Positions 18,604 to 21,340 of a DNA stretch of 64,000 bases are shown here, in pieces. Position 1 is the stretch's first letter; each line of letters starts with the position of its first letter. Under the pieces are notes generated by a model. That model did not search any database, was not told the DNA's origin, and saw only the letters and a program-made list of their open reading frames with translations. Both the position numbers and the translations under genes were made by a program. The stretch spans positions 1,488,001 through 1,552,000 of the forward strand of contig NZ_JBAMHQ010000001.1 of the NCBI RefSeq assembly GCF_037081775.1, written 5' to 3'. The DNA is from Haladaptatus sp. ZSTT2. Lineage in GTDB: Archaea; Halobacteriota; Halobacteria; Halobacteriales; Halococcaceae.

Positions 18604-19578
18604 TTAGCCGAAGTAGGCGGCTGCGCCTTCGTGGAGGTCAATCGACATACCCTCTTGAGCCGTTTCCTTGCTGATAAAGTTCTTTTTGATTTCCAGCTGG
18701 TCGGTGTTGTCGAAGATTGCCGCGGTCACGCCTTCGACGGTGTCAGCTTCGAGTTCGGCGCGCGTGGCGATCATCGCCTTAACGGAGACCGTCTCGCGGT
18801 CCTCGCTCACGCCCCCGTACGTACCACCGGGGATGGTGTCCTCTGCGTAGAACGGGGCGGCGTCGAGCACTTTCTGGCGGGCGTCGCCGGTGAACGAAAC
18901 GATTTCGATGTCGTTGTTCGCGGCGAGGTCGGAAATCGCACCGACTGGCCACCCACCGACGACGAACGCGGCGTCGATGTCGCCGTTTCTGAGCTGGTCT
19001 GCGGCCGTCGAGAAGCCGGCGTTCTGCTCTTCGTAGTCGGTGATGCCGATGGCTTCGAGAATCTGGACGGCGTTGACCTGTGTCCCGGAGCCAAGGTCAC
19101 CGGTGTTGATGGTCTTGCCTGCGAGGTCTGCCGGCTCGGTGATACCCGTCGATTTCAGCGTGACGAGGGTGATGGTCTCTGGATAGAGTGTTGCGACGCC
19201 ACGGAGGTTCTCCACGGGGTTGCCCTCGAACGCTTCGATGCCTTCACCGTTCTTTGCGAAGTAGGCAACGTCGTTCTGGATGAGCGCGAAGTCCGCGTCG
19301 CCAGACTGGAGCGACCCCACGTTCTCGACAGATGCACCGGTCGACTGCACCTGCAATGTGAAGTCCGAGTGCTCCTCGACGATGGTCTTGAACTCGTTCG
19401 AGAGTGGGAAGTACGTCCCGCCCGTTCCGCCTGCGTGCCAGGAGAGACGGGTCGTGTCGCCACCGCCGCCTCCGGTACAACCAGCGAGCGCGGCGATACC
19501 TGTGGCACCAGCCACCTGCATGAATGTCCGACGGCTTGTGTTCGAACCAGTTGATTGGTTGGAATTGCTATCTGCCAT
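18604..19578 (-). CDS. TAXI family TRAP transporter solute-binding lipoprotein
   Basis: The 324-residue precursor carries a Tat motif SRRTFMQVAGATGIAAL and a lipobox ending LAGC, so it should be exported folded and lipid-anchored, as is usual in haloarchaea. A glycine-rich linker follows. The mature part starts LSWHAGGTGGTYFPLSNEF, the typical TAXI phosphate/carboxylate-binding segment, with VGSLQSGDADFALIQNDVAYFA and AGKTINTGDLGSGTQVNA further on. It captures an unknown small ligand for the fused permease. ATG at 19578 fits the signal; the longer frame would add 13 residues before it. It is the first gene of the three-gene operon. Confidence 0.92.
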   Translation of the reverse strand: MADSNSNQSTGSNTSRRTFMQVAGATGIAALAGCTGGGGGDTTRLSWHAGGTGGTYFPLSNEFKTIVEEHSDFTLQVQSTGASVENVGSLQSGDADFALIQNDVAYFAKNGEGIEAFEGNPVENLRGVATLYPETITLVTLKSTGITEPADLAGKTINTGDLGSGTQVNAVQILEAIGITDYEEQNAGFSTAADQLRNGDIDAAFVVGGWPVGAISDLAANNDIEIVSFTGDARQKVLDAAPFYAEDTIPGGTYGGVSEDRETVSVKAMIATRAELEADTVEGVTAAIFDNTDQLEIKKNFISKETAQEGMSIDLHEGAAAYFG

Positions 19579-19937
19579 ACTGCCGTAATAGCGACTCTGA
19601 ATGAAAAGCTTATTCACTCACGGTGACGACCCGTTCGACTCTATAGATAGATTGGCAAATATGTTTGAGTCTATATATTTGAGCAAAATACGGGCCCAGT
19701 GTTTGAGCAGCAGTTCGTAATGCACGCAAAACCGAAACCATAGTGTCACGATTCGGTAGAATTTACTGTTTTATTTGTGACTAGAATAATTGATGCACAC
19801 AACTATATAGAACAACTATAGTTTGTTTAGCTGATAGGACGGTCAAGACGAATGCCTGCATGAAAAAGCCGGTCAGCGGACTGAAGTCACACCGACAGAC
19901 CACCGAGTAGTGAGGACGCCTGCCGTGGTATATGGAC

Positions 19938-19960
19938 CCCCCACGAGAAAAACAGGGGTC
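19938..19960 (+). repeat. ORB-like element, weaker copy
   Basis: CCAC, then GAGAAAAACAGGGGTC, aligns to the two strong copies at about 14 of 23 positions, keeping CCAC, GAAA and GGGTC. It also forms a GACCCC/GGGGTC inverted repeat (19935-19940 and 19955-19960). Confidence 0.4.
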
Positions 19961-20007
19961 TGTTTCGGTAGCGATTTCCCACCGAACATTCGACTTCCTG
20001 CTGTGGG

Positions 20008-20030
20008 TTTCCACCCGAAACCAGAGGGTT
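20008..20030 (+). repeat. ORB-like element 1
   Basis: TTTCCACCCGAAAC is followed by a short variable spacer and GGGTT. This matches the general plan of archaeal origin recognition boxes (a TTTCCA..GAAAC dyad plus a G-rich arm) bound by Orc1/Cdc6. The first 14 bases are identical to those of the copy at 20158. Confidence 0.6.
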
Positions 20031-20157
20031 CGATGTGGCGACACCGCGATGCGAGCGGCCACGACAACCGACTCGTGTGACTATCTTTCGCTATAGAGAT
20101 GAAAGTGGTTGAGTTCGTTCGGAACTTCGGCGCCGGCATCCGAGTTTCCGCAGGCGA

Positions 20158-20180
20158 TTTCCACCCGAAACAGGAGGGTC
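20158..20180 (+). repeat. ORB-like element 2
   Basis: TTTCCACCCGAAAC followed by AGGA and GGGTC; same orientation as the copy 150 bases upstream. Its last two bases overlap the stop codon of the small zinc-finger gene on the minus strand. Confidence 0.6.
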
Positions 20181-20420: not shown

Positions 20421-21095
20421 TTACTGGGTGCGGAACGCACGGTCGCCAGCGTCACCGAGGCCGGGGATGATGTAGCCGTCGTCATCGAGGTAGTCATCGA
20501 TAGCGACGGTGAGGATGTCCGCTTCGGGAACCGCATCCGCGACACGAAGCAGGCCTGGCGGCGCGCTCACCGCAGAGAGTACGATGAGGTCCTGTGGGTC
20601 TGGTGCGTCTTCGAGGACGTGTTCTAAGACGGTGCACATCGTCGAGCCCGTTGCGAGCATCGGGTCTGCGACGATGACCGTGTCGGTTTCCTTGATTTCG
20701 GGGAGTTTCACGTAGTCAATCGTGATGGGGAACTCGCCGTCCGCCATCCCGGCTTCCTCGTCGCGTCCGGCGCTGATGACGCCCTGTTTCGCGCGGGGGA
20801 ACGCTTTGAGGAGGCCTTCGACGAACGGCGTCGCCGCGCGGAGCACGTTGATGATGACGACGTCATCTAAGCCTTTGACGCGCTCGCCGGTCGTCTCCTG
20901 CATCGGCGTCTGGATGGTGACGTACTCGGTTTCCATGACGCCGTCGATGATTTCGTAGCCACAGATGCGCCCAAGCTTGACGAGGCCTTTGCGGAAGGCT
21001 ACCTGTGAGGTCTTTACGTCTCTGAGTTTCGACAGCGTGTCTTTGGCCAGTGCGTGCGTGACGACTTGCGCGTCGCCGCGGTCCTCGATGGTCAT
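20421..21095 (-). CDS. upp: Uracil phosphoribosyltransferase
   Basis: Upp converts uracil and PRPP to UMP in pyrimidine salvage. The 224-residue protein shows [27 protein letters not shown], the PRPP loop [20 protein letters not shown] (about residues 128-147) and the C-terminal uracil-binding [18 protein letters not shown] at 21095 gives [26 protein letters not shown], the family start; the upstream in-frame extension does not resemble it. A small membrane protein is encoded 59 bases upstream on the same strand. Confidence 0.95.
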
Positions 21096-21154
21096 TGTTC
21101 GTATGGGCAACGCCGATTGCCATAAATGACCGGATGTGACCCACGGACGCGACA

Positions 21155-21340
21155 CTATCGCATGATGACGAGATAGGTGAGCGCGGTCAACACGAGCGCG
21201 GCGGTCGCGACGTTCTCAAAGGTGAACGCAAGCAAGTCGATGAACGACGCACCCCAGACGACCACCGTCGCAAACAGCGCAGAGAGAACGAGATTCATCA
21301 CGAAAAGGACGCGCGGGTCGCCCTGTGACTTCTGACTCAT
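21155..21340 (-). CDS. Small two-helix membrane protein
   Basis: This 61-residue protein begins with a short polar segment ([10 protein letters not shown]) and has two membrane helices, [20 protein letters not shown] and [18 protein letters not shown]. No family was recognised. It sits directly upstream of upp on the same strand, so the two may be co-transcribed, though no uracil permease features are present. Confidence 0.55.

Follow-up and report, generated by a model that had tools for sequence, protein, structure and literature searches.

Does a stretch of DNA that carries ORB-like repeats, but has no orc1/cdc6 gene beside it, represent a replication origin, or could its boxes serve another role? 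The question is raised by a gene-free stretch (19579-20178) within the window, the 64,000 nucleotides analysed here (C1:1488001-1552000), where the box site lies 100 kb from oriC1. A preliminary description of this stretch recognised in its repeats and AT-rich segment the known plan of haloarchaeal origins, and proposed either a dormant or secondary origin or an Orc1-binding cluster with another role.

Boxes of the oriC1 class in the window

The element TTTCCACCCGAAACNNGAGGGT occurs on the + strand as two near-perfect copies (20008-20029 and 20158-20179) that are 150 bp apart, a pair for which the expectation from 100 dinucleotide shuffles of the window is 0. When scored with a weight matrix built from hand-picked oriC1-type boxes of haloarchaeal genomes, this genome among them, the proximal ORB (20159..20179, + strand, TTCCACCCGAAACAGGAGGGT), which overlaps the stop codon of a DUF7569 gene by 1 bp, reaches 26.2 bits and the distal ORB (20009..20029, + strand, TTCCACCCGAAACCAGAGGGT) 22.9 bits. 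Both boxes possess the G-string of haloarchaeal oriC ORBs, in the form AGGGT rather than GGGGT. Judged by their sequence, the repeats at 20009-20029 and 20159-20179 are real and are ORBs of the oriC1 class. Across the whole 3.23-Mb genome, only a single further copy of TTTCCACCCGAAACNNGAGGGT with up to three mismatches was found (C1:1608485), and this lies inside the canonical oriC1, with orc1 on one side and a gene for an Era-like GTPase on the other. In oriC1 of this chromosome an inverted ORB pair flanks an AT-rich element. The genome contains seven Cdc6/Orc lid-domain matches, none of which falls in the window, as the preliminary description had observed; the orc1 gene beside oriC1 is ~98 kb from the site. 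No oriC1-class box was found at the loci of the other six Orc genes, and the two Orc loci searched for repeats (L006 and L009) carry different repeat classes.

The two boxes are identical at 39 of 41 positions (95%) between this genome (G000) and its sister species G001, compared with 66.9% for the intergenic DNA without the boxes (Fisher p=2.7e-5). G001 retains 19 of the 20 bases of 20159-20178 in the proximal ORB and 20 of 21 in the distal ORB, and the 150-bp spacing is identical in the two genomes. A weaker copy reported at 19938 corresponds to a degenerate third ORB-like element (19939..19959, + strand, CCCCACGAGAAAAACAGGGGT) that scores only 9.9 bits, yet G001 retains 20 of its 21 bases, compared with 67% identity in the surrounding intergenic DNA. 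The very weak copy suggested near 19731 is not kept in G001 and probably arose by chance.

The stretch is bordered by genes on the - strand, in the order TAXI/TRAP gene, boxes, DUF7569 and then upp. The DUF7569 gene (PF24453; 20179..20385; Pfam E=4.3e-34) encodes a 68-aa zinc-ribbon protein that matches its family with 116.8 bits against a cut-off of 27. Its conserved neighbour is upp, encoding uracil phosphoribosyltransferase (20421..21155, likely start 21098; TIGR01091 E=5.4e-71), and on the opposite flank lies a gene for a TAXI family TRAP transporter solute-binding protein (18604..19578; TIGR02122 E=1.8e-85). The AT-rich segment noted in the preliminary description is present in the window (19620..19850), upstream of the TAXI gene, but AT profiles in relatives indicate that it is not a conserved part of the ORB unit; it is missing beside the ORB pair in Halogeometricum, Haloarchaeobius, Halorussus and Haloferax mucosum, the last of which also lacks TAXI at the locus. 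It can thus be ruled out as an unwinding element, and looks like the promoter region of the adjoining TRAP gene. Ahead of the TAXI gene, some 50 AT-rich bases (19760-19812) are almost identical in G000 and G001 and are probably promoter or regulator sites. Alignments of G000 with G001, within Haloferax and across genera reveal a conserved spacer block between the two ORBs (20075..20123), containing a CGAAC/CGAAAC...ACC motif, that is possibly a site for another protein; a search of the spacer for structured RNA yielded no Rfam match up to E 0.1.

A pair of boxes linked to DUF7569

In Haloferax, Halogeometricum, Haloarchaeobius, Halorussus and the window's genus, the ORB pair is kept as a unit directly past the DUF7569 stop codon, in most cases on the downstream side of upp. 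The first four of these genera have direct-repeat pairs spaced 134-150 bp apart, including all 11 Haloferax species examined (a set without Hfx. mediterranei), and in Haloferax the conserved parts of the interval between DUF7569 and TAXI are the two boxes and the spacer block. Haloferax volcanii also has DUF7569. Over 80 named haloarchaeal upp loci, which share descent and so are not independent trials, no ORB of at least 18 bits was present in 451,838 bp upstream of upp, compared with 71 in 461,748 bp downstream. In Halobellus, whose upp gene is near the origin, some of the downstream matches form inverted pairs and in this resemble true oriC1 boxes. A profile search with the unit's sequence gave matches in 109 of 146 genomes, strongest right after DUF7569, although many of the weak ones represent single boxes or oriC1 itself.

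The arrangement varies between lineages. Another member of the window's genus (G002) possesses a degenerate pair with 132 bp spacing between upp and TAXI, and like Natrialbaceae retains a box without DUF7569. Most Halorubrum loci, in contrast, retain DUF7569 without an adjacent pair; their box lies 3.4-5.7 kb downstream of upp, where the simple gene caller is unreliable as to coding status. Some lineages, such as Halorubrum and Natrialbaceae, keep one box or have lost the pair, and others have neither, so the pair is not essential everywhere.

A box is located within 400 bp after the stop codon at 52 of 93 DUF7569 loci, and two boxes at 39, the 93 being drawn from named and unnamed sets that partly overlap and include some duplicates. 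Placement is fixed at 0-80 bp past DUF7569 with constant orientation: all 91 boxes following the stop codon lie on the strand opposite to the gene (91 to 0), which reflects shared descent and linkage rather than independent events. When DUF7569 is relocated the pair travels with it, as observed in Haladaptatus and one Halorussus genome. In the former, DUF7569 is beside the gene for the small subunit of polD, 50-100 kb from upp, and the boxes follow its stop codon immediately, from the very next base. Halorussus G045 has DUF7569 and the pair 32 kb from upp, whereas both are 1-4 kb from upp in other Halorussus genomes. Since the boxes follow DUF7569 when it leaves upp, a tie to upp itself can be ruled out. 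We also rejected a fixed orientation relative to oriC1 or fork direction, as most of the boxes in Halorussus and in the window's genus face oriC1, but those in Haladaptatus and G108 point away from it. A search limited to open-access papers found no literature naming DUF7569.

In two further genomes (G113 and G158) upp is ~1 kb from the polD small-subunit gene, and these arrangements suggest that upp, DUF7569 and polD come from one ancestral gene neighbourhood close to oriC1. In four Haladaptatus loci (L149 and L151-L153) the polD small-subunit gene has, within it or at its start, two inverted ORBs separated by 57 bp (e.g. L149:6485-6562), and single ORB-like matches occur inside this gene in other genera.

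The distribution of boxes around oriC1

Among 30 largely complete haloarchaeal genomes, related by descent and hence not independent samples, a strict ORB pattern gave 147 matches, compared with 1 for a reversed-pattern control; the matches include a few coding coincidences (argD in Halorussus and internal to polD). Measured from the polD small-subunit gene (DP1), a marker that lies near oriC1, and with wrap-around chromosome lengths that are approximate in some of the genomes, the density of strict ORBs is 95.6/Mb at 0-15 kb (oriC1 included), 11.9 at 15-50 kb, 4.0 at 50-100 kb, 2.7 at 100-200 kb, 0.33 at 200-400 kb and 0.05 beyond 400 kb. Boxes of the oriC1 type thus surround oriC1 as a halo. 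A perfect look-alike in Halorussus, ~100 kb from oriC1 (CTCCAGTCGAAACTGAGGGGT; L048:4553-4573 and other Halorussus), was discarded as a coding coincidence because it is argD coding sequence, encoding LQSKLRG; such look-alikes are a trap for motif scans.

Within 400 kb around oriC1 of the present genome there are 17 boxes of at least 18 bits, 12 of them outside oriC1 where ~0.2 would be expected. Sixteen of the 17 have a box of at least 18 bits at the syntenic place in G001, the exception (1742257) falling below this threshold. Nine of the 12 off-origin boxes are intergenic, compared with 15% of the DNA being non-coding by a simple gene call, in which the box overlapping a stop codon by 1 base was counted as intergenic. 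Six intergenic oriC1-type ORBs outside the window (G000:C1:1573503, 1595876, 1595957, 1597531, 1613238 and 1786348) lie off the origin, at positions between -34 kb and +178 kb relative to oriC1, and G001 has a counterpart of each; 1595876 and 1595957 form an inverted pair, 81 bp apart. The distance of the site from oriC1 is partly plain synteny, since at least 81 of 117 genomes have upp within 130 kb of the gene for the polD small subunit. In the open-access literature searched, we found no description of ORBs that lie far from haloarchaeal origins.

Possible roles of the off-origin boxes

In the haloarchaeal origin plan, inverted ORBs flank an AT-rich unwinding element (PMC3936714, PMC4595724), and the ORBs and AT-rich stretch of the window, together with box ends that face the AT side as they do at oriC1, speak for a dormant or secondary origin. 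The likeness to this plan does not extend further. The window pair is a direct repeat with no partner box on the other side, and the AT-rich stretch does not accompany it in relatives. Nor does GC skew turn at the site: the cumulative curve is still rising there, at 1508 kb, and its high points fall at ~1610 kb (near oriC1) and at 1680 kb. Moreover, the deletion genetics of Hfx. mediterranei allow for no additional origin that is active in its own place (PMC4595724). On these structural and genetic grounds an origin at the site is unlikely, and we regard a dormant or secondary one as very improbable. It is somewhat easier to imagine, though still improbable, that the pair is the functionless remnant of an old origin or of an ORB cluster once adjacent to oriC1 and moved by rearrangement. 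The proximity of upp or DUF7569 to the polD small-subunit gene near oriC1 in some lineages and the degeneracy of several copies are consistent with this, but the retention of the boxes at 95% against a 67% background, and across genera at similar spacing, argues otherwise.

The strict placement past DUF7569, and the movement of the pair with this gene, might instead indicate Orc1-dependent control of transcription, with Orc1 beyond the stop codon blocking or ending upp-DUF7569 transcription, or repressing antisense or TRAP transcription. We consider this doubtful, since the boxes follow the gene rather than lying at a promoter, linkage alone accounts for their fixed orientation, Natrialbaceae and G002 have a box without DUF7569, and the DUF7569 link would be explained but not the halo. 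Rather less doubtful, although on balance unlikely, is a mark of the origin domain for segregation or organisation, in which Orc1 on scattered ORBs would act like ParB on parS in partition or folding. Such a role would suit boxes that are scattered within ~200 kb of oriC1, are for the most part single and intergenic, and recur at syntenic places in the sister species; DUF7569 could provide a partner. This reading fits the halo nearly as well as restraint of oriC1, and nothing in the data separates it from titration. The bacterial parS sites around oriC are likewise short and scattered in an origin-centred domain, but they differ in protein and sequence, and a marking role for the window boxes is a proposal. 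No partition protein or Orc1 link was found, however, and haloarchaea, being polyploid, may manage without strict partition.

The reading that we tentatively favour, with somewhat less than an even chance of being correct, is that the site is a conserved off-origin pair of putative Orc1-binding boxes, within a halo centred on oriC1, that serves to restrain oriC1. This corresponds to the alternative offered in the preliminary description, an Orc1-binding cluster with another role, which is the best supported of the readings. Each of the two boxes would bind Orc1, the initiator encoded beside oriC1. In most genomes their distance from oriC1 is 30-110 kb, so that they would be doubled soon after oriC1 fires; by this early duplication they would divert Orc1 from the origin and make re-firing less likely. 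In Escherichia coli, datA is a cluster of DnaA boxes away from oriC that is replicated early and restrains initiation. The window site resembles datA in having initiator boxes off the origin that are nevertheless early-replicated, but datA belongs to the bacterial DnaA system and has no link to a DUF7569 gene, and restraint at the window site is what we infer. In Haloarcula hispanica a separate ORB-rich, non-origin region, oriC2D, restrains oriC2, likely by titrating Cdc6E, as proposed from genetics (PMC3936714). Like oriC2D, the window site consists of ORBs apart from an origin core, and these are of the class of the origin that they would control; oriC2D, however, adjoins its origin, serves Cdc6E and oriC2, and contains many ORBs, whereas the window has a DUF7569-linked pair ~100 kb from oriC1 that is conserved across genera. 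From oriC1 itself, with which it shares the ORB class and G-string, the site differs in lacking an inverted pair, a conserved AT-rich element and an adjacent orc1.

By analogy with datA and oriC2D, off-origin Orc1 binding would most likely regulate initiation at oriC1. A pair of boxes would offer little capacity for simple titration unless the halo as a whole takes part, and pure titration does not predict tight linkage to one gene or a conserved spacer block. A broader proposal, which we hold to be less probable than restraint by the pair, is that the field of putative Orc1 boxes extending to ~200 kb from oriC1 forms one distributed system that controls or marks the main origin. In such a system the DUF7569-linked pair would be the best conserved of the distal nodes, and DUF7569 itself a candidate partner.

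For archaea that have several origins and many copies of the chromosome, it is still largely an open question how initiation is limited. The conserved pair within a cloud of boxes suggests that the origin is controlled or marked in a manner not described before, rather than that a second origin is present, and illustrates that ORB clusters alone do not predict origins. The conserved field of boxes, with its cross-genus node at a small zinc-ribbon gene, offers defined sites and a candidate protein for deletion.
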